Positions 21,643 through 54,400 of a stretch of DNA of 64,000 nucleotides are shown in pieces. Origin of the DNA: Euzebya rosea (GTDB lineage: Bacteria; Actinomycetota; Nitriliruptoria; Euzebyales; Euzebyaceae); contig NZ_PGDQ01000016.1 in the NCBI RefSeq assembly GCF_003073135.1, positions 62,001 to 126,000 on the forward strand, given 5' to 3'. Under the pieces are notes generated by a model. That model was not told the DNA's origin. It was given only the letters and a program-made list of their open reading frames with translations, and made no database searches. Position 1 is the stretch's first letter; each line of letters starts with the position of its first letter. A program made the translations under genes and the position numbers.

Positions 21643-23127
21643 ATGAGCCGTCTGCGCATCCTCGTCGTCTCCGTCGTCTCCGTCGCCATGCTGGCGACCT
21701 CCGTCGGACCCGCCGCCGCGATCGGCCTGGGCGTCAGCATCACGCTGCCGGGCATCGACCTGTCCGTCGGCGTCGACGGCCTGGACATCGAGCTGGGGCT
21801 GGACCTGTCCGCGGAGCAGCTGGCCTGGGGTGGCAGCGGCCCGACGGCGACCATGGCCCACGTGGCCGAGGCGATCGGCGCGGACGACCTGCACGCGGAC
21901 GGCATCACGGGGGCCGGGGTCGGCATCGCGATCATCGACACCGGCGTCGCCGACGTGGCGGGCCTGGAGGACACCCTCCGAGGCCCCGACCTGTCGCTGG
22001 ACGCCCCGGTCGAGGGGCACTACGGCGTCGACGACTACGGCCACGGCACCCACCTGGCCGGCCTGATCGCCTCGGACCGTCCGGACGCCCGCGGCATCGC
22101 CCCGGACGCCACGCTGGTCTCGCTCAAGGTCGGGGCCGGCAACGGTGCGGTCGACGTCTCCCAGACCCTCGCGGCCATCGACTGGGTCGTGCAGCACCGC
22201 GACGACCACGACATCCGGGTCCTGGTCCTGGCCTACGGCACCGACGGTACGCAGGACCCGCAGCTGGACCCGCTGTCCCACGCCGTCGAGGTCGCCTGGG
22301 ACCACGGCATCGCGGTCGTGGTCGCGGTCGGCAACCACGGCGAGTCCCGCGACCCGGTGGTCAACCCGGCGACCAACCCCAACGTCATCGCCGTCGGCGC
22401 CGTCGACACCCGGGCCACGAGCACGACGCTGGACGACCGCATCCCGGCGTTCTCCGCGCCCGGCACCCCCGAGCGCCGCCCGGATGTCTTCGCACCCGGT
22501 GTGGGCATCGAATCCCTTCGCGCGGCCGGCGGCTACCTCGACCAGACCTACCCCGCTGCACGACGTGACGGCCAGCTCTTCCGCGGCAACGGCAGCTCCC
22601 AGGCCGCGGCGATCGTCGGTGGGGCGGCGGCGCTGCTGCTGCAGGCCCGGCCCGACCTGTCCCCCGACGACGTCAAGGCCGTGCTGTCCAGGAGCGCCAC
22701 CCGGCTCGACAACCTCCTGACCGGTCAGGGCGTGATCGACCTCCCCAGCGCCCTGGCCACCCCCGCGGTGCTGACCGACCAGGACCACCCCGCCTCGACC
22801 GGTACCGGGTCCCTGGAGGCTGCCCGCGGCAGCACCCACCTCGGGGAGGCCGACGACCTGCTGGCAGGCGAGGTCGACGTGTTCGGCCAGCCGTTCGACA
22901 GCGCAGCATGGGCGCAGTCCGCCACCGCCGGCACGAGCTGGCAGGACGGGGTCTGGAACGGCACCCGCTGGGTCGGCAACGACTGGGTGGACGGCCGCCT
23001 GGCCGCGGTCCCGTGGGACGCGTCCACCTGGAACGGCTGGAGCTGGCACGGGTGGTCGTGGCACGGCTGGTCGTGGCACGGGTGGTCGTGGCACGGCTGG
23101 TCGTGGCACGCCCAGGGCTGGGAATGA
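21643..23127 (+). CDS. Secreted subtilisin-like S8 protease with C-terminal WSWHG repeats
   Basis: This secreted 494-residue protein has a signal peptide (RLRILVVSVVSVAMLA, ending near AAA at residue 28), an Asp/Leu-rich pro-region and a subtilase domain. The catalytic triad is Asp99 (AIIDTGV), His137 (GHGTHLAG) and Ser319 (GNGSSQAAA, where GTSMAAP is usual), with the oxyanion Asn in AVGNHGES. A conserved TGTGSLEAARGS block then leads to a Trp-rich tail ending in five WSWHG-type units. The ATG at 21643 puts the signal peptide at the start. It is translationally coupled (ATGA) to a membrane GGDEF-EAL protein. Its substrate is unknown; processing of its own or another Trp tail is one possibility. 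Confidence 0.92.
   Translation: MSRLRILVVSVVSVAMLATSVGPAAAIGLGVSITLPGIDLSVGVDGLDIELGLDLSAEQLAWGGSGPTATMAHVAEAIGADDLHADGITGAGVGIAIIDTGVADVAGLEDTLRGPDLSLDAPVEGHYGVDDYGHGTHLAGLIASDRPDARGIAPDATLVSLKVGAGNGAVDVSQTLAAIDWVVQHRDDHDIRVLVLAYGTDGTQDPQLDPLSHAVEVAWDHGIAVVVAVGNHGESRDPVVNPATNPNVIAVGAVDTRATSTTLDDRIPAFSAPGTPERRPDVFAPGVGIESLRAAGGYLDQTYPAARRDGQLFRGNGSSQAAAIVGGAAALLLQARPDLSPDDVKAVLSRSATRLDNLLTGQGVIDLPSALATPAVLTDQDHPASTGTGSLEAARGSTHLGEADDLLAGEVDVFGQPFDSAAWAQSATAGTSWQDGVWNGTRWVGNDWVDGRLAAVPWDASTWNGWSWHGWSWHGWSWHGWSWHGWSWHAQGWE
23038..23112 (+). repeat. In-frame 15-bp array, five W-S-W-H-G units
   Basis: Five tandem 15-bp units encode WSWHG (the last WSWHA). Differences among units are synonymous (GGC/GGG, AGC/TCG) until the final codon, showing that the peptide rather than the DNA is conserved. 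Confidence 0.95.
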
Positions 23128-25571
23128 CCGTGACGGCAGCTGCCGGCTCCACCACCCCCGGCGCCGCCCGCCGGATCTGGCTGGGCTCCGCCCTCCTCGC
23201 CGCCCCCCTGCTGGCCGTCACCGCGTCGTGGGGACCGTTCACCGCGTCCTCGACCCAGCTGTGGCAGGCGGCCGTGGTCACCGCCGTCGTCGCCATCTGC
23301 GAACGGTGGGTCTCCATCACCGTCCGCACCGGGACGCAGAGCCACTCCCTGACGCTCAGCGAGGCCCCGCTGCTGATCGGCCTGTTCCTGCTGCCGGTTC
23401 CCCTCCTCGTCGGTGCCCGCGTCGTCGGCATGGTCCTGGCCAACCAGGTCCTGCGACGACAGCAGGGCTACAAGACCGCCCTCAACGTCACGCAGACCTG
23501 GACCGAGACGCTGGTCGCGGCCGGCCTGTTCGGTGCGGTCGCCGGGCTCGGCCTCGCCGTCCACGTCGAGCTGCTGGTCGTGGCCGGCATCGTGGGCGTC
23601 GTCGTCAACACCATCGGCGTGGTGTTCATGACGGTCGCGGTGTCCAGCATCGCGGGCCACCTCGTGCTCGGGCCGGCCAGGCGGGCGGTCTGGACCGGCC
23701 TCGTCCCGTCGATCACGTCGGCGCTGGTGGGCGCCACCGCCGTGGCCCTGTGGGCCGTGTCCCCCGTGCTGGTGCTGGTGCCGGCCGTCCTGTCGGTCTT
23801 GCTCACGGTCGCCTACCGGTCCTGGCTGGAGCTCGTGGACGCGAACGACGCGCACGCCCGCCTGCTGGACTTCACCAAGGCGGTCGCCGCAGCGGGTGAC
23901 CTCGACGCCACGATCGAGGCCATCGTGCGCGAGGCGCACAGCCTGCTGTCGCCTCGCCGTGTGGCGGTCCGGTTGCCGACCTCGACCGGCGAAGCCAGCG
24001 CCTGGGTGGGCGTGGACCCCGACACCGCGGTCGAGCTCGACCAGCTCCTGCAGGACCACCACGACACCTCGGGTCCCGGCGCGACGACCGGGCCGCCGGC
24101 GGACGAGGAGACGCTCTTCGTCCCCCTCGACACCGGCTGGCTCGCCGTGTCCCTGGAGCGCGACAGCATCCGTCCCCACGACCGACGGACCGTCGGCATG
24201 CTCGCCGCGCACGCCGGCGTGGTCGTGCAGAACATCCGGTCGGCGGACTCGCTGCGGGACCAAGCCGACGAGGCACGGCATCGCGCCACCCACGACGTGC
24301 TCACGGGCCTCCCCAACCGCCAGTCGTTGCTGACCGCGATCGTCGAGGCGGAGCTCGTCGGTCGGGCGTTCGGTCTGCTGCTGCTGGACCTCAACGACTT
24401 CAGGAAGGTCAACGACGCCCTCGGGCACCACGCCGGCGACCAGGTCCTGGTCGAGCTGACCCGGCGGGTCACGCCCATCCTCGACGACGTGCGGATGTTC
24501 GCGCGGATCGGCGGCGACGAGTTCGCTGCCGTCGTGGAGGGTGATGTCAGCCGGTGCACGCTCGTCGCCGAACGGCTGCACCTGCTGATCGGCCGGACCA
24601 TGACCGTCGACGGCTACGACGTGGCCACCAGCGCCAGCATCGGGGTGGCCCTCGCGCCGGAGCACGGGTCGGACCCCTCGACGTTGCTCAAGCACGCCGA
24701 CCTCGCCATGTACGGGGCCAAGCGGCGGGGCTGCGGCACCCAGGTCTACGGAACGGAGGCCGGCGGCCGTGCGCTGCGCGACCTCGAGATCAGCAGCGGC
24801 TTCCGCATGGCGCTGGACCGAGGGGAGATCGGCGTGGTCTTCCAGCCGATCATCGACCTCGACTCCGGCCGGGTCGCTGCCGTCGAGGCGTTGACCCGCT
24901 GGACGCACCCGGCGCTCGGGGTCATCCGTCCCGACGAGTTCATCGCTGCCGCAGAGCAGAACGGCATGGTGACGGAGCTGACCCGCCACGTCCTGCACGC
25001 CTCGTTGCAGTGGCAGCGGTTGTGGGCCGCTGCGGGGGTCGACCTGCAGGTCGCGGTCAACATCAGCGCCCGGTCGCTCGTCGACGACCAGCTGGCGGCG
25101 ATGGTGGCCAACGCCCTTTCCCGCCACCGTGTCCCCGCGGACCGGCTGACCCTCGAGCTGACCGAGTCCAGCGTCGTCAGCGATCCGACGATCACGATCG
25201 CAACCCTCCGCGGGCTGCGGGCGCTGGGTGTCCGGCTGGCCGTCGACGACTTCGGCACCGGGTACTCCTCGCTGTCCTACCTGCGCGAGCTGCCCGTCGA
25301 CGAAATCAAGATCGACAAGTCCTTCGTGATCCCGCTGGCCGACGAGGTCGACACCCCGCCGCTGCTGTCGGGGATCATCAACCTGTGCCGCGAGATGGGC
25401 TTCGAGCTCGTGGGCGAGGGCATCGAGAACGCCGAGGTCCAGGGCAAGCTGACCAACCTGGGCTGCTCACGCGGGCAGGGCTTCCACATCGCCCGCCCGA
25501 TGGACGGCGCAGACCTCCTGGAGTGGCAGGCCAGCTGGCGCGCCCGGCAGACCATCGACCTCACCGTCTGA
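23124..25571 (+). CDS. Membrane GGDEF-EAL protein 1 (c-di-GMP turnover)
   Basis: This 815-residue protein has an N-terminal membrane domain of seven or eight helices (about 12-235) with a signature LSEAPLLIGLFLLPVPLLVGAR followed by NQVLRRQQGYKTA. A GAF-like region (about 240-370), GGDEF (motif intact at 463-467, RIGGDEF) and EAL (588-590, VEALTRW) follow. The EAL domain keeps [28 protein letters not shown] and GEGIEN, so phosphodiesterase activity is expected; cyclase activity is also possible. Its ATG overlaps the protease stop, making a protease/c-di-GMP operon closed by a clear terminator. The membrane domain is shared with the proteins at 27289-29793 and 35570-38059. Confidence 0.93.
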   Translation: MTVTAAAGSTTPGAARRIWLGSALLAAPLLAVTASWGPFTASSTQLWQAAVVTAVVAICERWVSITVRTGTQSHSLTLSEAPLLIGLFLLPVPLLVGARVVGMVLANQVLRRQQGYKTALNVTQTWTETLVAAGLFGAVAGLGLAVHVELLVVAGIVGVVVNTIGVVFMTVAVSSIAGHLVLGPARRAVWTGLVPSITSALVGATAVALWAVSPVLVLVPAVLSVLLTVAYRSWLELVDANDAHARLLDFTKAVAAAGDLDATIEAIVREAHSLLSPRRVAVRLPTSTGEASAWVGVDPDTAVELDQLLQDHHDTSGPGATTGPPADEETLFVPLDTGWLAVSLERDSIRPHDRRTVGMLAAHAGVVVQNIRSADSLRDQADEARHRATHDVLTGLPNRQSLLTAIVEAELVGRAFGLLLLDLNDFRKVNDALGHHAGDQVLVELTRRVTPILDDVRMFARIGGDEFAAVVEGDVSRCTLVAERLHLLIGRTMTVDGYDVATSASIGVALAPEHGSDPSTLLKHADLAMYGAKRRGCGTQVYGTEAGGRALRDLEISSGFRMALDRGEIGVVFQPIIDLDSGRVAAVEALTRWTHPALGVIRPDEFIAAAEQNGMVTELTRHVLHASLQWQRLWAAAGVDLQVAVNISARSLVDDQLAAMVANALSRHRVPADRLTLELTESSVVSDPTITIATLRGLRALGVRLAVDDFGTGYSSLSYLRELPVDEIKIDKSFVIPLADEVDTPPLLSGIINLCREMGFELVGEGIENAEVQGKLTNLGCSRGQGFHIARPMDGADLLEWQASWRARQTIDLTV

Positions 25572-25619
25572 GCCCGGCCCGCGTGCAGATGCGTAGGTGC
25601 CGCACGAGCCGAAATGACC

Positions 25620-25651
25620 AGGCGACACCATCCATCGGGATGGTTTCGCCT
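25620..25651 (+). terminator. Terminator of the first protease/GGDEF-EAL operon
   Basis: AGGCGA-c-ACCATC pairs with GATGGT-t-TCGCCT around a CATCGG loop: 12 pairs with one mismatch, 48 bases after the stop codon and just before the promoter of the second copy. Confidence 0.8.
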
Positions 25652-25670
25652 CCCGCCACGGCGCACGCGC

Positions 25671-25698
25671 TCAAGGGCCGCCGGCGGGCCCCCGACAC
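25671..25698 (+). promoter_or_regulatory. Candidate FliA/WhiG-type promoter of the second protease
   Basis: TCAA (25671-25674, within GCTCAAGG), a 16-base spacer and CCCGACAC (25691-25698). The ATG at 25707 is eight bases downstream, so a leaderless message starting there is plausible and might make Met3 of the annotated frame the true start. Confidence 0.6.
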
Positions 25699-25700
25699 CC

Positions 25701-27188
25701 ATGGCGATGCTCACCTTCAGTAACATCCGCCTCGCCCGCCTGCTCCTCGTCCTGCTCGTCACCAGCGTGCTCGGGACCCTCCCCACCTCGGCCCACGCCG
25801 AGGACCTGCCCGCGCTGCCCAGCGCGGAGGAGACCGTGGCGTGGGAAGCGGAGGGCACGACCGCGACCCTCGGTCACGTCGCCGAAGCCGTCAGGGCGGA
25901 CCGGATGCACGAACGGGGCCTGACCGGTGCGGGGATCGGCGTCGCGCTGATCGACACCGGCGTGGCGCCGGTCGTCGGCCTTGCCGACGTGGTGCACGGC
26001 CCCGACATCTCGCTGGACTCCCAGGCCGAGCAGGCCCAGCACTACGACGTGTACGGCCACGGCACCCACCTGGCGGGCATCATCACGTCCGACCGCGAGG
26101 ACGCACCCGGCCTCGCCCCCGGCGCCACGCTCGTCTCGGTGAAGGTCGGCGCATACAACGGCGCGGTCGACGTGTCGCAGGTCATCGCCGGCATCGACTG
26201 GGTGGTGCAGCACAGGGAGGAGCACAACATCCGCGTCCTCGTGCTGGCCTACGGCACGGACTCGACGCAGGACCCCGCGATCGACCCGTTGTCCCACGCC
26301 GTGGAGACCGCGTGGCACAACGGCATCACGGTCGTCACGGCAGCCGGCAACGACGGACAGCTCCGTGACTCCTTGGTGAACCCCGCGACCAACCCGTGGG
26401 TCATCGCCGTCGGTGCGGTGGACACCCAGGGCACGCGACGTGTCTCCGACGACACGATCGCCACCTTCTCCTCCCCCGGGACCGCCACCCGCCGTCCCGA
26501 CGTGCTGGCGCCGGGCGTCGGAATGGTCTCGGCCCGCGTCCCCGGCGGATACCTGGACACCGCGTTCCCGCAGGCCCAGCGACCGGGTGACCTGTTTCGC
26601 GGCAACGGCACCTCGCAGGCGGCCGCCGTCGTCGGCGCCGGCGTGGCGCTCCTGCTGGAGGACGACCCGACGTTGACCCCCGACGACATCAAGGCGCGGA
26701 TCATCGCCGGCAGCAAGCCCCTGCGCCAGGAGGGGTACGAGGAGACCTGGCAGATGATGAACCTCACCCAGATCCGTACGTCGGATGCCACGGGCGACCA
26801 GGCCCATCAGGTGAGCACGGGCGTCGGCTCCCTGGAGGCTGCCCGCGGGTCCTACCACCTGACGGGCGACACCCCACTGGTGGGCGAGCAGGACATCTTC
26901 GGGATGCCGTTCGACAGCGCGACGTGGGCTGCGGGGGCCACCGCGATGGCCTCGTGGGACGGCGGGACATGGAACGGCACCGAGTGGACCGGCTGGGGCT
27001 GGGACGGCTGGGGCTGGGACACCGTGGAGTGGACCGGCACGACGTGGGACGGCTGGGGCTGGGACGGCTGGGGCTGGGACGGCTGGGGCTGGGACGGCTG
27101 GGGCTGGGACGGCTGGGGCTGGGACGGCTGGGGTTGGGACGGCTGGGGCTGGGACGGTTGGGGCTGGGACGGCACCCAATGGGACTGA
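25701..27188 (+). CDS. Secreted subtilisin-like S8 protease with C-terminal WGWDG repeats
   Basis: This 495-residue paralogue of the protease at 21643-23127 keeps the same order: signal peptide (ARLLLVLLVTSVLGTLPTSAHA), short pro-region, subtilase domain and Trp-rich tail. The triad is Asp85 (ALIDTGV), His123 (GHGTHLAG) and Ser305 (GNGTSQAAA); the oxyanion Asn is in AAGNDGQ. The block GVGSLEAARGS precedes the tail as in the first copy. The tail has ten WGWD units, eight in one perfect array; Asp replaces the His of copy 1. Start at 25701 or 25707. It is followed after 100 bases by its own GGDEF-EAL partner, which has a separate promoter candidate. Confidence 0.92.
   Translation: MAMLTFSNIRLARLLLVLLVTSVLGTLPTSAHAEDLPALPSAEETVAWEAEGTTATLGHVAEAVRADRMHERGLTGAGIGVALIDTGVAPVVGLADVVHGPDISLDSQAEQAQHYDVYGHGTHLAGIITSDREDAPGLAPGATLVSVKVGAYNGAVDVSQVIAGIDWVVQHREEHNIRVLVLAYGTDSTQDPAIDPLSHAVETAWHNGITVVTAAGNDGQLRDSLVNPATNPWVIAVGAVDTQGTRRVSDDTIATFSSPGTATRRPDVLAPGVGMVSARVPGGYLDTAFPQAQRPGDLFRGNGTSQAAAVVGAGVALLLEDDPTLTPDDIKARIIAGSKPLRQEGYEETWQMMNLTQIRTSDATGDQAHQVSTGVGSLEAARGSYHLTGDTPLVGEQDIFGMPFDSATWAAGATAMASWDGGTWNGTEWTGWGWDGWGWDTVEWTGTTWDGWGWDGWGWDGWGWDGWGWDGWGWDGWGWDGWGWDGWGWDGTQWD
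27051..27170 (+). repeat. In-frame 15-bp array, eight W-G-W-D units
   Basis: Eight consecutive 15-bp units (GGC TGG GGC TGG GAC) encode GWGWD; only two units differ and both changes are synonymous (GGC to GGT). Two further units lie just upstream, separated by TVEWTGTTWD. Near-identity suggests recent expansion by slippage or unequal crossing-over. Confidence 0.95.
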
Positions 27189-27217
27189 GTCGCTGATCGT
27201 CCTCACCGACGGTTCGC

Positions 27218-27244
27218 TCAACTCACTCGGAGCTTCGCCGATCG
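27218..27244 (+). promoter_or_regulatory. Candidate FliA/WhiG-type promoter of GGDEF-EAL protein 2
   Basis: TCAA (27218-27221, within GCTCAAC), a 15-base spacer and GCCGATCG (27237-27244): the closest match in the window to TAAA-N15/16-GCCGATAA. The leader of about 40 bases can fold (CGATC-GAGAG against CTCTC-GATCG, 27240-27281) just before the ATG. Confidence 0.6.
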
Positions 27245-27288
27245 AGAGGGGGACGGGGGTCAACCCTTCTCTCGGATCGAAACGCACC

Positions 27289-29793
27289 ATGCCGCAGGTC
27301 ACCACATCCAACGGACCGCCCCTCGGGGCGGTTCGTCGCGTGTGGTTGCTCACCGCCCTCGTCGCCCTTGTCAGCGCGGCGGGCACGCTCCTGCTGCCGA
27401 CCCCCCAGGTCGCCACCAGCGACCTGGTACGGGCGACGATGCTGATGGCGCTGGTCGCCGTCACGGAACGGTGGTCGATACGGGCACGACTCGGCCAGGT
27501 CTCCCACCGGTTGACGCTGTCGGAGGTCCCGTTGGTCCTCGGCGCCTTCTTCGTGGCCCCGATGCTGCTGGTCGGCGCGCGCCTCCTCGGCGGCTTCATC
27601 GGCCTCCAGGTGCTCAGGCGGCAGGAGCCGTACAAGACGGCGTACAACGTGGCGTACCTGTGGATCGAGACGCTCGTGGTCCTCGTGGTCGTCGACCTGC
27701 TCGACCCCACGTCCCTCGTCGGCGGTCCGCGGGGATCGCTGGCCATCCTGGCGATCGCCCTGTCGGTGGCCACGACCGGGGCGGTCGCGAAGGTCGGCGC
27801 CATCTCCGCCATGCAGGGACGCCTCGCCCGTGGCCTGGCCCTCCCGGGACTTCGCGACGGCATCGGCCCGTCGTTGGCCACCGCCGCGGCAACCACCATC
27901 GGGGTCGTGCTGTTCCGGACCGAGCCGACGCTGCTGTGGGCCCCGGCCGTCGTCCTCGGGGTCCTGCTGCTGGCCTACCGCTCGCACGTCAGGCTCGTCG
28001 AGGCCCAGGACCTGCAGTCCAGCCTCATCGCCATCACGCAGGGCATCACCGGGGAGGCCACACCCGACGAGACCGCCATGCTCATGGCGACCGCAACCCG
28101 GCGCATCCTCGACGCACCGATCGCCGCCATCAGCCTGGCGGACCCCGAGACGGGCAGGCGCACCTGGTACGGCGCCGACGCCGACAGCTGGACGAAGCTG
28201 GAGGAGGCCCGCCTCGCCGCAACCCGCACGCAGGAAACGGCCGCCCGCCATGCGCCCGGCGGCACGATCGCCGCCCCGGTGGACGCCGCGACCGACTCCT
28301 GGCTGGTTGTCGGCTACAGCCGCACGTCGGCCACGGGCGAAGCGGACCGCCAGACCGTCGGCATGCTCGCCAACCACGCCGCCGTGGCGCTGGCCAACGC
28401 CCACCGCGGGGCAGCCCTGCGAGCGCAGGCCGAGCAAGCAACCTTCGAGGCCACCCACGATCCGCTGACGGGGCTGGCGAACCGGGCAGCCCTGCTCGTC
28501 GCCATCGACACCGCCCTTGCCGAGGACACCGCGTTCGCCGTCCTCCTCATCGACCTCGACAACTTCAAGGAGATCAACGACGCCCTCGGCCACGCCGCCG
28601 GGGACACCGCCCTGGAAGCCATCGGGCAGCGCATGACGTCCTTCGTCGACGAGGCCCGACTGGTCTGCCGTCTCGGCGGCGACGAGTTCGCGGTCGTCCT
28701 CGACGGCGGTGAGGTGAGCGCCCGAGACCTGGCCGGCCGCATCCGCGACGCGATCGGCGAGCCGGTGCAGCTGGGCTCCTACACCCTGCAGGTCGGCTGC
28801 AGCGTCGGCATCTCCACCTATCCGCACCTCGGCCGTGACGCCGACGAGCTGATGACCCATGCCGACCTCGCCATGTACGAGGCGAAGGCACGTGGCGGAG
28901 GGGTCGCGACGTTCGGTGCCGCAGCCGGTGGCCGCGCGATGCGTCAGCTCGCCATCAGCTCCGGCTTCAGGTCCGCCCTGGGCAACGGCGACATCAACCT
29001 GGTCTTCCAGCCGCTCGTCGACCTCCAGACCACCCGCGTGGTCAGCATGGAGGCGCTGTCCCGGTGGACCCACCCGACCCTCGGACCGGTCAACCCCGAG
29101 GAGTTCGTCCGCGTGGCCGAGCAGTCCGGCCTGATCACCGACCTGACCCATCGTGTGCTCGACTCCGCCCTGTCGTGGCACCGCCGGTGGCTCGACGAGG
29201 GCGAGGACCTGCCCGTCTCGGTGAACGTCAGCGCGACGTCACTGCTGGACACCGGCCTGCCCCGCCTCGTCGCCACCACGCTGGACGCCCACGGCGTGCG
29301 TGCCGACCGGCTGACCCTCGAGCTGACCGAGTCCAGCGTGATCGGGGACCCCCAGCGCACGCTGGAGGTCCTGGCCCGCCTGCAGCGGCTGGGCGTGCGC
29401 ACCGCGATCGACGACTTCGGGACCGGGTACTCCTCCCTGGCCTACCTGGCGCAGCTGCCCGTGGACGAGGTCAAGATCGACAAGTCCTTCGTCCTCCCCA
29501 TGCTGGACGGGACCGGATCGTTGCCGCTGGTCGCCGGGATCATCCGCCTGTGCACCGAGATGGGCTTCGACATCGTCGCGGAGGGCATCGAGACCGACGA
29601 GATCCAGACGACCCTTCGCGACATGGGCTGCACCCGAGGACAGGGGTTCGGCATCGCCCGACCGATGGACCCCGACTCGGTCGTCCAGTGGGTGCGGCGG
29701 CACCACGGCCCCCGCACCCTCCACGTCGTCACGGACCCCGCTCGGCGAGGTCCGGACGTCAGCGGCTCCTGGCGGCCTGCTGCAGGGCGTTGA
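27289..29793 (+). CDS. Membrane GGDEF-EAL protein 2 (c-di-GMP turnover)
   Basis: This 834-residue paralogue of the protein at 23124-25571 is collinear with it: the GGDEF motif falls at 463-467 and EAL at 588-590 in both. The N-terminal domain has the same signature ([20 protein letters not shown] and [12 protein letters not shown]). A GAF-like region, intact RLGGDEF, and [35 protein letters not shown] and AEGIET follow, so both catalytic domains look competent. Its last 35 bases overlap the convergent acs gene. Together with the protease it forms the second copy of the duplicated pair. Confidence 0.93.
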
Positions 29794-35569: not shown

Positions 35570-38059
35570 CTACCGGGCGTGCCGCAGCGGGAGGACGGTG
35601 GGGATGCTCGGGTCCTGGCGACGAAGCAGGACGCCGACCGCCTCGGCGCTCATGGGGCGGTGCAGGTGGAAGCCCTGGCCGCTGTCGCAGCCCATTGCGG
35701 TCAGCAGGTCCAGCGCCGTCTGGTCCTCGATCCCCTCCGCCACGACGTGCAGGCGAAGGCTCTTGGCCATGCGGAGGATCGCCTCGGTGATCGCGCGGTC
35801 GTCGGCGTCCCTGGCCAGGTGGGTCACGAAGCCCCGGTCGATCTTGACCTCGTCGACGGGCAGGCCCTTGAGCTGGGCGAGGGAGGAGTAGCCGGTCCCG
35901 AAGTCGTCGATGGACACCCGCATCCCCGCGGCATCGAAGAGGGCCAGGATGCCGCTGCTGCGCTCTAGGTCGCCCATCATCTGCGACTCCGTGATCTCCA
36001 GGGTCAGCCGGTGGCCGGGGACCTCGTACTCACGGCACCGGTCGATGATGTGGCGGGCCAGCGACTCCTCCTGCATCACCACCGTGGAGAGGTTGACGGC
36101 CACGGAGATGTCGCAGCCGGCCTGGTCCCACTCGGCGGCCTGCCGGATGGCGCTGTCGACCACCCAGAGGGTCAGGGGCCGGATCAGGCCGGTCCGCTCG
36201 GCGACGTCGATGAACTGGGCTGGGGAGACGTAGCCACGGGTGGGATGCGCCCAGCGGGCGAGCGCCTCGACACCCTCGATCCGCCCGGTCGCGAGGTTGA
36301 CCTTCGGCTGGTAGGCGATCGACAGGCCGTCGTCGTCGATGGCCCGACGGAGGTCGCTGGCGAGCTCCAGTCGCTCCGTGGCCGCGCTGTCGAGGTCGCT
36401 GGTGAACCATGCGATCTCCGCCGACCCGTCGGCACCGTGCTCGACCAGGGCGTTGGTGGCCCGTCGCAGCAGCTCACCGACGTCGGTGCCGTGACGCGGT
36501 GCCGAAGCCGCGGCGAAGGAGAACCGTGCCTCGAGCTGCAGGTGGGTCCTGGTGATGGGTCCACGCAGGGACTGGCGGAGGCTGTTGATCGCCTCCCGGG
36601 CGTCGAGCCGGTGCTCCATGCCCGGCATGACCGCGGCGAAGCGGTCGGGGCTGATCCGACCGACGGTGAAGCCGTGCTCCTCGCCGAAGCGCCGAAGGCG
36701 GTCGGCGGTGGACTGGGCGACCTCGACCGACACCGTGTGTCCGAACGCGGCGTCGATCATCTCGAGGTCCAGCAGCTCGGCGACCATGACGGTGCCGGCG
36801 TCCAGGCGGGACACGGCGTCGACGAGTCCATCGAAGTTGAAGAGCTGCGTGGCCGGGTCCCGGAGCGCGGACCGTTCCAGCTCCACGGATCGGGAGCGAA
36901 GCTGGTCGACCAGGCGTGAGGTGGCCACGGCGACGCCCGCGTGGCGCGCAAGCGCGCAGGCCAGCGCGACGTCGTCGGTGTCGAACTTGGGCATCGTGCC
37001 CCGGCGGCCCTGGAGGACCAGCGCCCCCTCGACGGACTCGTGGGCGAAGCTGGCCAGCAGCAGCTGCTCGCTGAGCGGTCCGATGATGCCGTGGTGGGGG
37101 TTGCGACCTCCCGGGTCGATGGTCAGGCCATCGACGGCGCCGGCGACGAGGCGCTTGGCCTCGCTCATCGGCAGCTCCTCCGACGACAGCAGGCCCGATC
37201 CGAGGGAGTCCAGCCGCACGGCCACGTCCCCGGTGATCAGCACGATGCCGGTCTGCTTGGCGCCGGTGACCTCCGCCGCTTCCTCGAGCACGTTGGCCAG
37301 CAGGTGCTGGACGCTGGTCTGTCCCTGGATGCCCTCCATGAAGGAGTAGAGGGAGGCAACCGACCGGTGTTTCTGCGACAGCGCGTGTCGCGAGCGGTTC
37401 GTGACGATCAGCAGGCCGAGCACGCCCGCGAACGCCACGGCCGTCACCGTCTCGGCGTCCACCAGCCGCGAGGCCACGGTCGCTGCGGCCGTGGAGATGG
37501 CGAGCGTTGCCACCACCGCCACCATGGCGGGACGCAACTGGTCGGCCCTCAATCGTCCCACGGACAGCCGAATGACGAGCAGCACTGCTGCGGTGGAAAC
37601 GACCTCCGCGGCACCCATCCCGAGGATTATCCCGACGATCGTCTGACCATCCAGCAGCTCAGCGCCGTTCGAGACCCACCCGTACACGGACGCCAACACC
37701 CACACCTCGACGGCATGGGCCACGATGTTGAACCGGACCTTCTCGCTCGACCCCGCCCACCGGTAACGCACCGTCAGGATTCCGGCAAGAACGCGGGCAA
37801 TCAACGTGGACAACGGCCCCACGAAGAGTACGCCCAGCACAACGACGAGTCCCGACAGCGTGCTGTGGAAGGACTGGCCGCGCACCTCCAGGCCCAACGG
37901 CCACCACTCGGCCACCAGGAAGCCGACGAACAGCAGTGCCGCCAGCGGGATCGCGTTGGTCCCTTGTCCCGCTTGGGGGGGCAGAACCAACCAGCCCACG
38001 CATGCGAGCAAGCCCAGAGCCGCCGTGAGGCGGTCAGCGGGCGAGGGGAAGCGCTGCAT
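35570..38059 (-). CDS. Membrane EAL protein 3 with degenerate GGDEF (probable c-di-GMP phosphodiesterase)
   Basis: This 829-residue third member of the family has an N-terminal membrane domain related to those of GGDEF-EAL 1 and 2 (STLSGLVVVLGVLFVGPLSTL aligns with their LSE-PL-LG segment, followed by VRFNIVAHAVE). A GAF domain (about 230-390) follows, then a GGDEF domain whose motif has decayed to SPDRF at 470-474, and an EAL domain with the motif at 598-600. The EAL domain keeps [28 protein letters not shown] and AEGIED. It is therefore expected to hydrolyse c-di-GMP only, possibly with GTP-sensing by the dead GGDEF. It is divergent from the GATWA-peptide locus, with 159 bases between. Confidence 0.92.
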   Translation of the reverse strand: MQRFPSPADRLTAALGLLACVGWLVLPPQAGQGTNAIPLAALLFVGFLVAEWWPLGLEVRGQSFHSTLSGLVVVLGVLFVGPLSTLIARVLAGILTVRYRWAGSSEKVRFNIVAHAVEVWVLASVYGWVSNGAELLDGQTIVGIILGMGAAEVVSTAAVLLVIRLSVGRLRADQLRPAMVAVVATLAISTAAATVASRLVDAETVTAVAFAGVLGLLIVTNRSRHALSQKHRSVASLYSFMEGIQGQTSVQHLLANVLEEAAEVTGAKQTGIVLITGDVAVRLDSLGSGLLSSEELPMSEAKRLVAGAVDGLTIDPGGRNPHHGIIGPLSEQLLLASFAHESVEGALVLQGRRGTMPKFDTDDVALACALARHAGVAVATSRLVDQLRSRSVELERSALRDPATQLFNFDGLVDAVSRLDAGTVMVAELLDLEMIDAAFGHTVSVEVAQSTADRLRRFGEEHGFTVGRISPDRFAAVMPGMEHRLDAREAINSLRQSLRGPITRTHLQLEARFSFAAASAPRHGTDVGELLRRATNALVEHGADGSAEIAWFTSDLDSAATERLELASDLRRAIDDDGLSIAYQPKVNLATGRIEGVEALARWAHPTRGYVSPAQFIDVAERTGLIRPLTLWVVDSAIRQAAEWDQAGCDISVAVNLSTVVMQEESLARHIIDRCREYEVPGHRLTLEITESQMMGDLERSSGILALFDAAGMRVSIDDFGTGYSSLAQLKGLPVDEVKIDRGFVTHLARDADDRAITEAILRMAKSLRLHVVAEGIEDQTALDLLTAMGCDSGQGFHLHRPMSAEAVGVLLRRQDPSIPTVLPLRHAR

Positions 38060-38068
38060 GTCGTGATT

Positions 38069-38080
38069 ACTCCGCGGAGT
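38069..38080. promoter_or_regulatory. 12-bp perfect palindrome just upstream of EAL protein 3
   Basis: ACTCCGCGGAGT lies ten bases from the EAL protein 3 start codon, with related half-sites (CTCCG, GCGGAGAA) nearby at 38084 and 38111. It would be in the 5' leader or promoter of that gene: a candidate operator or small hairpin. Confidence 0.45.
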
Positions 38081-38119
38081 TTTCTCCGTGCAAGAGGTTT
38101 ACGTGCGAGCGCGGAGAAC

Positions 38120-38147
38120 TTAACCTACAGGCAGGCGCACCCGACAC
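38120..38147 (+). promoter_or_regulatory. Candidate FliA/WhiG-type promoter of the GATWA-peptide locus
   Basis: TTAA (38120-38123, within CTTAAC), a 16-base spacer and CCCGACAC (38140-38147), the same -10 octamer and spacing as at 25671-25698. It predicts a leader of about 65 bases, rich in T and unusually AT-rich for this window. Confidence 0.55.
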
Positions 38148-38218
38148 GCTGCAATCGTGCCGAGTGTGCTCGTCCTGTTACTTGAATTCGTTTTGTCTGT
38201 TCTCTGGAAGGAACTGCA

Positions 38219-38329
38219 ATGACTCGCAAGACCGATGGTGCAACCTGGGCTGGCGCAACCTGGGCTGGAGCCACTTGGGCTGGAGCCACTTGGGCTGGAG
38301 CCACTTGGGCTGGGGCCACCTGGGCCTAG
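38219..38329 (+). CDS. 36-residue peptide made of six GATWA repeats
   Basis: The peptide is MTRKTD followed by six GATWA units and a TAG directly after the last. GGAAGGA (38206-38212) lies six bases before the ATG. The six 15-bp units differ at Gly, Ala, Thr and last Ala codons only in third positions (GGT/GGC/GGA/GGG, GCA/GCC, ACC/ACT, GCT/GCC), so every difference is synonymous, strong evidence that this frame is translated and under selection. I know no characterised homologue. Read as A-T-W-A-G it fits the A-x-L-x-x pattern of pentapeptide-repeat helices with Trp at the central position. It has no signal peptide. It is divergent from EAL protein 3 and shares period and Trp richness with the protease tails. 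Confidence 0.85.
   Translation: MTRKTDGATWAGATWAGATWAGATWAGATWAGATWA
38219..38329 (+). repeat. 15-bp array encoding GATWA
   Basis: Six tandem 15-bp units occupy 38237-38326. The array keeps several frames open on both strands, so short overlapping frames here should not be taken as genes. Confidence 0.9.
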
Positions 38330-38339
38330 CAACTTTCCT

Positions 38340-38363
38340 GTCGTGTCGGTCCATCGGCACGAC
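38340..38363 (+). terminator. Hairpin between the two small-peptide genes
   Basis: GTCGTG-t-CGG pairs with TCGg-CACGAC around TCCA: about ten pairs with two wobbles, 11 bases after the GATWA stop. There is no T-run. It could attenuate or set the ratio of the two products, or stabilise the upstream mRNA. Confidence 0.5.
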
Positions 38364-38416
38364 GGTTCACCGCCTTTAGAAAAAACTTCGCGATACCCGA
38401 GAAAGAAGGCAGACCC

Positions 38417-38539
38417 GTGTCCGTGATGATTGACGAACGCGTTGCTGGCGGCCGACCCACCCGGCCGGTCAAGTACGAGATCCGCCGCCCGGCCTTCGGC
38501 CGAGTGTTCAGCCTGGTGACCACGCTGCTCGCGAAGTAG
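38417..38539 (+). CDS. 40-residue basic peptide downstream of the GATWA gene
   Basis: GTG start at 38417 with AAGAAGG seven bases upstream, TAG at 38537-38539. The product is polar and basic in the middle (RVAGGRPTRPVKYEIRRPAFG) with a short hydrophobic, possibly amphipathic end (FSLVTTLLAK). No homologue is recognised. Its place 87 bases after the GATWA peptide, without a promoter-like sequence, suggests one transcript. It could be a membrane-binding partner, a processing or export determinant, or unrelated. Coding status rests on the ribosome binding site and context. Confidence 0.6.
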   Translation: MSVMIDERVAGGRPTRPVKYEIRRPAFGRVFSLVTTLLAK

Positions 38540-48402: not shown

Positions 48403-51400
48403 ATGCGCCACCGTCCGTTCGCCGTCCTCGGCGTCGTCCTCCTGCTCGTCGTCGGGCTGCTCGGCACACCGGTGCTGGGACAACCCGGTGACGTCGTCGC
48501 CCTGCAACGCGTGGCGGCAGGCGACCGCATCGGGACGGCGGTGGCGGTGTCGCAGCGGTTCTTCCCCACCGCGGACCACGTGGTGCTCGCTCGCGCCGAC
48601 GGATTCGCCGATGCCCTGGCCGGCTCGCCCCTGGCCGGGCTCCGGGGCGCACCGGTGCTGCTGACCACCCCCAGCGCCCTGCCGACCGCGGTGGGTGAGG
48701 AGATCGCGAGGCTCGGAGCCACGGCGGCCACGATCCTCGGTGGCGAGGCTGCCGTCGGCGAGGCCGTGGCCGACCAGCTGCGGGCGGCCGGCCTGACGGT
48801 GGAGCGAGTCAGCGGTCCCGACCGGTTCGCCACCGCGGCGGCGGTGGCGACGGCCACCGGCGCCACGCCCGGCGGACGCGTCATCGTCGCCCTGGGCACC
48901 CACCCCGACGCCGACCGCGCATGGCCCGATGCCCTGTCGGCGGCCAACCTGGCGGTCGACGGCACGCCGGTCCTGCTGACCGCCCCGGACCTGCTGCCAG
49001 CGGCGACGCGGTCGGCCATCGCCGACCTCGCCCCGTCGGAGATCGTGATCGTGGGCGGTGAGCTCGCCGTCGGGCCGACGGTGGAAGCGGAGCTGACGGC
49101 GACCGGTGCCGGAGTCACGCGTGTCGCCGGCGACTCTCGCTACACGACCGCCCTGGCCGCCGCCGACGAGGCACTGGACACAACGGGGACCCGCGGGGCC
49201 ACCGACGTCCCCCGGACCGTCGTGTTCACCACCGCCGAGGCCTACCCGGACGCCCTGGCCTCCGGGGCCCTGCTGCCGTACCTGCCGGCGGTCCTGGTCC
49301 TGGTCCCGACCGAGACACTGGACGAGTCCGTCCGGCGGTGGCTCGTGGGTCGGGCGGGCCAGTTCGACGAGGCCTACGTGATCGGCGGCACGGCCGCGGT
49401 CAGCGAAACCACGTTCGACGCGATCCAGGCCGCGCTCGGCGCGGACCCCGACCCCGACCCGACCACGGACCCGGCGCCCACGCCCTCGCCCTCGCCCACC
49501 GACGGTGGCCAGCCGACCCTCCCCGTGTCGCCCGGCGGCCCGGTGCCCGTGCCGACCCCGACCGACTCCGGTTCCCCCACCCCCACCGAGACCCAGGCGC
49601 CCGACCCCGATCCCACCCCGACCGACACCGAGACGCCCGAACCCGACCCCACCCCGACCGACACCGAGACGCCCGAACCCGACCCCACCCCGACCGAGAC
49701 CGAGACCGAGACCCCGGATCCCGTCACCGGGCCCACGCGCTTCACCGATCTCCTCGACGCGCTTGCGCCGCTGTACGTCGGCGACGATGCCGTGCAGGTC
49801 GGACTCGATCCCTCCCTGCTGGACCCCGCCCGTACCGCGGGCCTGCGGGGTCGGGTACTGGATCGCGACGGCCAACCCCTCCCCGGCGCGCGTGTGGACC
49901 TGCTCGGCCATGCCGAGCTCGGCCACACCACGTCCCAGCCCGACGGGACGTGGACCATGGCCGTGGCCGGTGGGCAGGTGTTGACCGCGACCGTGACGCT
50001 CGAGGGACATGTCCCGGTGCAGCGCACGACGACCGTTCCGTGGGGCGACATCGCGACGCTTCCCGACGTCGTGCTGATGCCCTACGACGACCGCAGCACC
50101 ACGATCGCCCTGCCGGTCGACGGTCCGACAGGGCACGTGGGATCCACGCAGACCGACGAGGACGGGACCCGTGCCGCGGGCCTGCTGTTCCGCGACGGGA
50201 CGACTGCAACCATGACCCTCCCGGGCGGTAGCACCGAACCGCTGTCGTCCATGACCGTCCGTGCGACGGAGCTGACCGTCGGCAGCGTCGGCCCCCTCGC
50301 GATGCCGGGCGAGCTGCCGCCCGGCTCGCTCTACACCTACGCCGTCGAGCTGAGCGTCGACGAAGCCGTCGCTGCCGGCGCCGTCCGCGTGGACTTCTCC
50401 CAGCACGTCGCCCTGCACGTCGACAACTTCCTCGGCTTCCCGGTTGGTTCGGAGGTACCGGTCGGCGTGTACGACAGCGACACCGCGTCGTGGCTGCCGA
50501 CCCCCGAACCGGGGATCGTCCTCGCCGTCGTGGGCGACGACGGCGGAGTCGCCCGGCTCGACATCGACGGCGACGGTGACGCCGACGCCGACGACGACGC
50601 ACTCGCCTCGTCGCTGGGCATCGACGAGGACGAACGAGTCCACCTGGCAGGCCGAGCATCCGTGCTGCCGTCGTCGTTCTCACGGGTCCGCATCACCCAC
50701 TTCACCCCGTACGACCTCAACTATCCCCAGGACGAGGACGACGAGGACGACGAGGAGGAGGAACCCGAGGACGACGAGGACGAGGAGGACGAGGATCCCT
50801 GCGACGAGGCCGCGTCCTCGATGATCGTCTGCGCCAGCCGGTCCCTCGTCGAGTGGATCGACCTCCCGGGAACCTTCCCGTTCTTCCGCGACTCCCAGGA
50901 TGCCGTCGGTCACGTGCGCAGCCGATCGTTGACCATCCCGCTCACCGGACCCACCGTCTCCCCCGGAACCGACGCAGTCGAGGTCGTCGTCCAGGTCGCC
51001 GGCCAGCGACACGTCCACGTGGCCGAGGCCCCCGGACCCGAGCGGTCGTGGGAGTTCGTGTGGGACGGCCGCGACCTGTTCGGCCGCCAGGTCGTCGGCA
51101 GCGTGCCCGTCACGGTGACGCACTCGACCATGACGTCCTCGACCTACGCCACGGGGGCGTTCGGTGCACCGCCGACCACGGCCTCCACCAGCACCGGGGT
51201 GGACACCCGAGAGCCCACTTCGAGAACGCGCACGTGGACCTCGACCCTGGACGGCCTGCCGCGACCGCTCGACGACACCGTGGGTGGGTGGAGCCCCTGG
51301 ATGCACCATCGCTACGACCCGGTCGCACGACGCCTGCGTCACGGCGACGGGACCTCTCGCACGACCGACGCGGTCGACGCGTGGGCCCACCTGTGGCGCG

Positions 51401-54400
51401 TCACCGGCGGCGGGACCGATCCCTTCGGCTCGCCCGCCGTGACGACGGCACCGGAGGCCAGCCGCATCGCGATCGCCGCCGACGGCAGCATCATCGTGGC
51501 CGAGGCATCGCAGCACCGTGTCAGCAGGATCACCCCCGACGGCGTGTGGCAGGCGTTCGCCGGTACCGGCGACCCGGGCAACGACGGTGACGGCGGTCCA
51601 GCCCTGGCGGCCACGCTGGACTCACCTGCGGCGGTGGCGGTACTGCCCGATGGTGGGGTTGTCGTGGCCGACGCCGGCCAGCACCGGCTGCGGCTGGTCG
51701 AGCCCGACGGGACCATCCGGGCCTTCGCCGGCACGGGCGAGGCGGGGATGGCAGGTGACGGCGGGCCGGCCGTGGACGCCCTGCTGGACGGACCCGTTGC
51801 GCTGGCCGTTCGGCCCGACAGCACCGTGCTGGTCGCCGATGGCAACAACGGCCTGCTCCGCTCGATCGACGCCGAGGGCCGTATCACCACGCTGGCAGGC
51901 GGTGGCGCGATCACTGACTGTGCGGCTGGATGCCTCCGCGACGAGGTCGACCTGACCGACATCGCCGACGTGGCCGTCTCCCCGGACGGTGACCGCGTGG
52001 CCGTGGCCGCGACCGGGAGCAGGGTGCTGGAGCTCGGCGAGGACGGACGGCTGCACGACGTGGGCCTGCGCGGCACCACCGTCGTGTACGGGCCGCAACG
52101 TGGTCTGTGGGTGGGCTCGGGCAGCGGGTTCGCGCGCTGGGACCTCGGCCTGCAGTCCGCCACCGACTTCACCATCCCCGAGGAGCTGTTCGGCTCCGAC
52201 ATCGGCCCCGTCGGCGCCCGCGCGACCGACCACCTGGTGGCGGTCGCCGACATGGCTCGCACCCCCGACGGCCAGTTGCTCCTCGTCGACGCGACCCCTC
52301 CCGACTCGGGTGCGGCGCCGACGGAGGGCATCTTCGTGCTCGGGTCCGCGCTGCCCCCGCGCCACACCGTGCCGACATCCAGGCCCGGGCTCCATGCCGC
52401 AGGACCGCTCGCCGAGGACGCCACGTACGTCGTCCCGGCGGAGGAGGGGACCCTTGCCCTGGTCTTCGACGCCGATGGCAGGCACCTGCGCACCGTCGAC
52501 GCCGACCGGGGGGTGGTCGTGTGGGCCTTCGGCTACGACGCCGGAGGAGCCCTCGTCAGCGTCACGGGGCAGACCGGACAGACGACGACGATCGAGCGGG
52601 ACGCGGACGGCAGCCCGACCGCCATCGTCGGCCACTTCGGCCATCGCACCGACCTGACCGTCGACGCCGACGGCCTGCTCTCCTCCGTGACCGATCCGCT
52701 GGGCCGGACACGGACGTTCGACTACGACGACGGGTTGCTCGTCGCGCACACCGACTGGGCGGGGAACCCCGCCAGCTACGCCTACGACGACCTGGGCCTG
52801 CTGACGGAGGCGGTGGCGACCGACGGGGTGTCGTTCACCCTCGAGGAGGAGGTCATCACCGAGACGCAGGTCGACGGCCGACGGGTCACCCTCGACATCG
52901 GCGGGGTGGAACGCCGTACCTACGAATGGGTCGTCGAGCGCGACCTCGACCTCCGCACGACCACCGCCACGCTGCCGTCCGGGGCGGTCAACCGGACCTA
53001 CGACTACCGGCACGGCGAGGTCGTGGCCGAGATGGCCGACGGGACCAGCCAGCGCCACCACGCCAGCCCCGATCCGCGGTTCGGCTCCGCCGGCGCACAC
53101 GTCGGGCTCCTCGAACGCTACGGCGGCGACTCGTTGTTCGCGACCACCACCGTCGAGGCGGTCATGGGCAACCCGCTCGATCCGTTCTCCGTCGAGCACG
53201 TGACCCGGACGATGGGCATCTCGGGCGAGGGCGACTACGTGACCGGCCTGGACCGCGACGCCGGGACGACCACCCGAACAACCCCTGACGGCAGCACGGT
53301 CGTTGCGTCGTGGGACGCCGAGGGACTGGTCACCCACGTCGATCCGGGGGACGGCCTCGCGCAGATCACCATCGAGCGCGACGAGGACGGCCTGATCACC
53401 CGAACGGTCGAGGGTGACCGGGTCACCACCACGACCTACGGCGCAGACGGTCTCCGTGACAGCGAGACCGGCCCCGCTGGCCGAACCCGCACCTTCGACC
53501 ACGACGCCGCAGCCCGGCTCGTGTCCAGCAGCGATCACACCGGCGCGGCGGTCTCCTACCGCTGGGACGACCTCGATCGACTCCTCGGCTGGACCAGCCC
53601 CGAGGGCATCGAGCACGACCGGGTCCTCACCCCCATGGGCCAGCTGACCACGCTCGATGCCCCCCCGAACCCCTTGGCCGGACTGTCCCACGACGACGCC
53701 CGCCAGCTGACGTCCGTCGTGCACGGCGACGGCACGACCACCTCGGTCACCGTCACGGGCGGTCTCAGGACCAGCAGCGTCGGGCCCGATCGAACCGTCT
53801 CCTGGTCCTGGCTGGACGGCGAGGAGCCCGGCACGTCGGACCTGACCGGACGGCTGTCGTCCAGCACGTGGACCGCCGGCAGCCACTCCACCACCCTGGA
53901 GGTCGACCATCGGGACGACCGGCCGCTGGAGTTCACCTGGACCACCGACGGGGTCGACGACAGCGTCCTGTGGCTGTGGGACGACTACCGCCCGACCCAG
54001 CGCCAGGTGAACAACCGCGCGAACAGCCAGATCGCCTTCGACCACGACGACGAGGGCCGCCTCGTCGAGTCCGGTCCCTGGTCGATCACCCGCGGCAACG
54101 CGTGGGCTGCGCCATCGGCCATCAGCAACGGCTCCCTCGAGACCCAGATCGTGCTGGACGAACACGGGGTCATGGTGGCGCGGTCGATCAGCCACGACGG
54201 CAACCCGGTCGCGACGCTGGACCTCGTGCGAGGCCCCGCCGGTCACGTCACCGAACAGGTGGTGACGGCGGACGGCACCACGTTGCTGGACGCCGCCTAC
54301 GGCTACGACGACCGGGCATGGCTGGCCTCGGCCACCGTGGACGGGGCCACGACGACCTACGCCTACGACGACGATGGCAACCGGATCTCGACCACCACAG

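Follow-up and report, generated by a model that had tools for sequence, protein, structure and literature searches.

Linkage of Trp-repeat arrays, among them a leaderless micropeptide, to a predicted S-component-like membrane sensor domain in Euzebya rosea and related genomes

A gene for a Trp-repeat micropeptide, a second small gene for a basic partner peptide, and a divergent gene for a membrane sensor-EAL protein stand together in the window, i.e., the whole 64,000-nucleotide stretch of Euzebya rosea DNA that was analyzed (Table 1). Judged from gene neighborhoods across the class and the phylum, the linkage of Trp arrays to the sensor domain is strong. Together with the divergent EAL gene, the two small ORFs may form one signaling module, with the Trp array as the cognate partner or ligand of the sensor, and this reading is given an even chance; gene neighborhood demonstrates that the genes are linked in function, not that their products touch. 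The sequence-only reading of the locus had offered a peptide signal, a modified peptide precursor, or a small structural protein, and the peptide signal fits best.

Table 1. Coordinates of the features in the window
Feature	Position	Strand	Basis
Related system: secreted S8 protease, C-terminal Trp array (WHGWS units)	21646..23127	+	
Related system: sensor domain-GGDEF-EAL, start overlaps protease stop	23124..25571	+	
Related system: secreted S8 protease, C-terminal Trp array (WDGWG units)	25704..27188	+	
Related system: sensor domain-GGDEF-EAL	27289..29793	+	
Membrane sensor (ECF S-component-like)-GAF-like-degenerate GGDEF-EAL, predicted c-di-GMP phosphodiesterase	35570..38059	-	Pfam
Predicted N-terminal S-component-like membrane sensor domain, residues 1-250	37310..38059	-	AlphaFold2, Foldseek
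Divergent intergenic region, candidate shared promoter/operator	38060..38218	.	Near-identity to congener
Leaderless Trp-repeat micropeptide gene, MTRKTD(GATWA)6, 36 aa, ATG to TAG	38219..38329	+	ORF calling, TRF, congener ortholog
RNA hairpin in the gap between micropeptide and partner genes, 11-bp stem	38338..38365	+	z -2.6, conserved in G001
Partner gene, 40 aa, MSVMIDERVAGGRPTRPVKYEIRRPAFGRVFSLVTTLLAK, basic (pI 11.4)	38417..38539	+	ORF calling; homologs at 6/6 loci

The features read earlier from the letters alone were recovered at the micropeptide ORF: an AAGGA ribosome binding site lies approximately 7 nt 5' of the ATG, six GATWA units differ at synonymous positions only, and the stop codon abuts the last unit. 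TRF described the array with period 15, 5.5 copies, 92% match, and a score of 124. The second small frame also has its own binding site as claimed (AAGAAGG before a GTG start). For the micropeptide, no Pfam family was found at E up to 1 and no match in NCBIfam; the partner had no match in Pfam, and its paralog, which was the sequence scanned against NCBIfam, had none there. By inspection, no signal peptide was seen on any micropeptide of the six loci described below. An open hydrophobic frame 5' of the peptide ATG in the congener G001 (VPSVLVLLFVFSFVCSLEGTA) was considered as a signal peptide and rejected, since an indel and a stop lie there in the window genome and nothing similar was seen at the other loci.

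Both small frames had been taken for real genes, and both proved to be conserved in the congener with the frame intact. The window genome and G001 were compared over 96 aligned nt of the GATWA ORF for frameshifts and non-synonymous drift. The differences fell 4/1/10 on the three codon positions, no frameshift was found, and the codon changes were 9 synonymous and 5 non-synonymous, the latter all Thr to Ser. Every repeat unit of G001 carries the Thr to Ser change and the other codon changes are synonymous, which argues that the array evolves in concert and the frame is kept. Read in the remaining forward frames and in two of the three reverse frames, the changes were largely non-synonymous; the third reverse frame shares its wobble position with the GATWA frame, and its replacements were radical. 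The partner was identical to its G001 ortholog at 37 of 40 residues (4 synonymous and 3 non-synonymous codon changes). By these codon comparisons, protein-level selection is shown for both small ORFs.

Comparison of gene orders showed that the Trp-repeat ORF stays beside both the DE[RS][VI]xGGRP partner and the gene for the sensor-EAL protein in each of four species and in two paralogs. All six loci combine a Trp-repeat ORF with a small basic partner and, divergently encoded, a membrane EAL protein whose GGDEF is degenerate. The G001 ortholog (L031) reads MTRKTD(GASWA)5, its frame intact. A second copy in the window genome was located on contig C7, where a partner homolog (MAVIIDERVVGGRP...) is followed by MTTTTITPVSTS and GVNWA units; this array runs off the contig, and contig C4 starts inside an array of the same type, which closes with DQQG. 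The assembly breaks inside the GVNWA array (L008, L009); C7 carries at least 10 units and C4 at least 7, and the two sets may overlap. The complete version of this paralog, with GINWA units, is found at a second locus of G001. The repeat peptides of G002 (MEKLGTTPQASPDGWSWTVSSLDGWSWTVTSLDGWSWT) and G003 (MNKLGTSWGITDGTSWGIADGTSWGFTDGTSWGITAGTSWG) are diverged copies with repeat periods of 10 and 8 residues, respectively, and their partners follow the repeat gene and have the form MA.I[LV]DESIAGGRP.

The partner N-terminus has the pattern M[AS]xx[ILV]DE[RS][VI]xGGRP at all six loci, and all partners are basic (pI 11.4-12.0). The expectation that the 40-residue frame always follows the array held for its presence (6/6 loci) and failed for its position at two, the C7 and G001 GINWA loci, where the partner comes first and the repeat gene second. 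The pairing of micropeptide and partner turned up in four species, all of a single genus, and a partner profile search of 66 class genomes returned the six loci only, plus weak background. A partner look-alike (L071) was rejected, lying inside a longer frame with no repeat gene. A partner-motif scan of 84,980 species genomes, a set that may omit very near relatives, gave four loci, all in Rhizobiales/Rhodobacterales, which were taken as chance.

The divergent neighbor had been read as an EAL phosphodiesterase, and Pfam agreed (EAL, 4.9e-71; GGDEF, 3.9e-11). In alignment, this protein keeps the EAL and DDFG motifs and has lost the GGDEF motif; in all micropeptide-linked EAL proteins aligned, the GGDEF is degenerate and the EAL motif is retained. 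The N-terminal membrane domain of approximately 250 residues is common to the micropeptide-linked EALs and to the EALs after the two S8 proteases of the window. It models like an S-component, the match being at fold level only: the seven best matches in PDB to the AlphaFold2 model (pLDDT 83) were ECF S-components (RibU, FolT, and a pantothenate S-component) in Foldseek, with target TM up to 0.72, probability 0.97-1.00, and a best E of 6e-3. Pfam held no family for the membrane domain, PF07694 (5TMR) gave no sequence match, and a PDB sequence search with the sensor-domain profile returned nothing.

The sensor domain was present in 41 of the 66 class genomes and in 62 of 396 sampled phylum genomes. 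The neighborhoods of 111 sensor loci were inspected; these were the best-scoring matches, not a random sample, and the counts, made partly by eye, are approximate. A Trp-repeat gene adjoined the sensor gene in about 70 of the 102 testable sampled loci (class and phylum together), nine of the 111 being too near contig ends. At 52 of the 111 loci, the array was the C-terminus of a secreted S8 protease, usually encoded directly upstream and often overlapping. Micropeptides were found at six, and other, truncated, or frame-broken Trp arrays at about eight. Small secreted Trp-repeat proteins with no protease were found at four loci, L162 and L167 (both GISWT), L149 (GISWV), and L151 (EVRWN), where the arrays have a signal peptide and lie directly upstream of sensor-kinases. 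About 32 loci (approximately 30% of the testable ones) were without a recognizable Trp array.

EAL genes with and without the sensor domain were compared in the window genome and G001, in a search restricted to period-5 Trp arrays. A Trp array lay within 5 kb of 12 of the 13 sensor-bearing EAL genes vs none of the 70 others (Fisher p = 1.3e-13), and it is therefore the sensor domain, not EAL, that the Trp array accompanies. By genome, the arrays were near 4/5 sensor-bearing and 0/30 other EAL genes in the window genome (35 EAL genes) and near 8/8 and 0/40, respectively, in G001. The output of the sensor swaps between GGDEF-EAL and histidine kinase while the array stays, and the array also stays in three separate groups in which the protease is absent. 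In a sensor-domain tree, which was unrooted and weak in its deep branches, the micropeptide-linked members formed one group (SH-aLRT 100) and the GISW-linked secreted type another (99), both sitting among S8-linked relatives. Among open-licence papers, none was found that describes Trp arrays in company with S8 proteases or such sensors.

Positions 21646-29793 of the window hold two tandem units of S8 protease/Trp array and sensor-GGDEF-EAL, and G001 has three such units in a row in this region. Two further S8 proteases with Trp arrays, L172 (G000:C4:133.7k) and L173 (G002:C10), had no neighboring sensor domain at E 1e-3. A QAWSG/QSWSG Trp array in a 219-residue open frame (L010, G000:C21:71913-71996), with no sensor nearby, may be in the wrong frame.

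The divergent intergenic region nearly matches that of the congener except for a short variable stretch before the ribosome binding site. Near-identity of upstream intergenic DNA in two species is expected of a shared control region, and the region is probably a shared promoter/operator. An inverted repeat within it (TTCTCCG...CGGAGAA, 38083-38130), kept in G001, is a possible operator. The region gave no sigma-70-type promoter match and no Rfam match. The hairpin noted after the GATWA frame was confirmed by folding (-18.3 kcal/mol, beating 197 of 200 shuffles). In G001, its stem is unchanged and the loop varies; at the same place in G002, the hairpin is stronger (L033 3915-3942, very stable, region z -5.8). 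The locus is more AT-rich than its surroundings, as stated earlier (63.2% GC at 38219-38539 vs 70.9% in the window, lower than 99% of same-size windows), mostly because of the non-coding flanks, which have 54% GC.

Other readings of the arrays were weighed. Trp arrays could serve at the surface or in the matrix as modules for binding to membrane, wall, or polysaccharide, with the sensor monitoring the envelope and the genes being neighbors through co-regulation, not through array-sensor binding. Trp favors membrane interfaces, and most arrays sit as tails at the C-terminus of secreted proteases, like many wall- or sugar-binding tails; however, the array tracks the sensor domain and not EAL genes generally, stays when the protease is lost, and in the micropeptides comes without an export signal, and this reading is considered unlikely. 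A modified-peptide (RiPP) or bacteriocin-like pair is rather improbable. In such a pair, the repeats would be core peptides or the partner a precursor cleaved after GG, as the small ORFs, the repeated units, and the conserved partner N-terminus ending in GG might suggest. Yet no maturation enzyme or peptidase-transporter was recognized in the ORF lists of the six loci, only 10 residues precede the GG, NCBIfam and Pfam gave nothing, and the pairing with the sensor would be left unexplained. The lowest probability is assigned to a conflict pair of two peptides, such as a toxin-antitoxin pair. Adjacent genes of tiny size, one with a basic product, would suit such a pair, but they are vertically stable beside the same EAL gene in four species, the same array type is found on proteases, and no known toxin similarity was seen.

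TrpL-type leader peptides are encoded by short Trp-codon-rich ORFs followed by a hairpin. The micropeptide ORF resembles them, having six TGG codons among 36 and then the hairpin that is conserved in G001 and present in G002, and these codons could sense charged tRNA-Trp and, with the hairpin, control the downstream ORF as in trp attenuation. Such a role is improbable given the protein-level conservation outside the Trp codons (Gly and Ala codons included), the reversed gene order in the paralog, and the similar arrays that are part of long secreted proteins. Moreover, the hairpin lacks a T-run and is therefore not a standard terminator, no competing terminator/antiterminator was found after the Trp ORF, and in G003 no hairpin above background lies between the repeat gene and the partner. 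The pentapeptide-repeat helix of the sequence-only reading, which would make the product a small structural or target-mimicking protein, found no support and is very improbable. Pentapeptide-repeat proteins share the five-residue period with small residues around a bulky central one, and the paralog unit V-N-W-A-G resembles their consensus with Trp at the central position. Here, by contrast, the center is Trp, Pfam gave no pentapeptide match at E up to 1, the periods in congeners are 8 and 10, and a helix of six units would have only 1.5 turns. When the longest complete array was modeled with AlphaFold2, no solenoid, strands, or beta-helix appeared (pLDDT 61, pTM 0.16), which is weak evidence as a single sequence was modeled.

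In the signaling-module reading, the Trp array would be the cognate partner of the S-component-like domain, as a ligand on its ligand-binding face or as a tethered regulator, and would thereby set c-di-GMP breakdown by the EAL domain. In most members, the array is borne by a secreted S8 protease; the micropeptide may be a reduced version without the protease, acting on a phosphodiesterase dedicated to it. The basic partner could, speculatively, be an accessory that delivers, exports, or antagonizes the Trp peptide. The micropeptides are without a signal peptide while the S8-borne and small secreted arrays are exported, so they may not meet the sensor in the same way; candidate routes for the leaderless peptide are contact at the cytosolic face, passage through a leaderless exporter, or release when cells lyse.

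AgrD-AgrC is a peptide-receptor pair with a small peptide gene beside that of a multi-pass membrane receptor with signaling output. The gene arrangement at the micropeptide loci is alike, but these loci are without a leader or a processing protease, and the receptor fold and output differ. The sensor-EAL protein also resembles MASE1-GGDEF-EAL proteins such as YfgF in having a multi-helix membrane sensor, an inactive GGDEF, and an active-type EAL, but it has no MASE1 Pfam match at E up to 1, and no peptide partner is described in the excerpted text on YfgF (PMC3718329). S-component-fold receptors (5TMR kinases, PF07694) are established, with GGDEF, EAL, PAS, GAF, and kinase outputs according to the excerpt of PMC11109136. 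The present proteins are like them in the S-component topology of the model and in the GAF, PAS, GGDEF, EAL, and histidine kinase outputs, and unlike them in the missing PF07694 sequence match and in the Trp-repeat partner, which that excerpt does not mention (PMC11109136).

The peptide, partner, and sensor-domain families are unnamed in the libraries searched; as a kind, the system would be membrane-receptor signaling by an encoded peptide or protein. We tentatively propose, at less than even chance, a signaling class that the searched literature does not describe, in which Trp-repeat ligands would be read by S-component-fold membrane receptors controlling c-di-GMP or histidine kinases. The ligand would be protease-borne, small and secreted, or a leaderless micropeptide with an accessory peptide. 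For most c-di-GMP phosphodiesterases, no input is known, and the neighborhood here points to a specific encoded input for the receptor domain. If this is true, a 36-residue peptide missing from the searched family libraries would be one side of a receptor pairing that is spread over many lineages in the phylum. The candidate natural minimal ligands, of 36-80 residues, are open to synthesis and testing.

Elsewhere in the window, a very large ORF (48403-55470, 2355 aa) contains 36-bp and acidic tandem repeats at 49575-49706 and 50729-50807.
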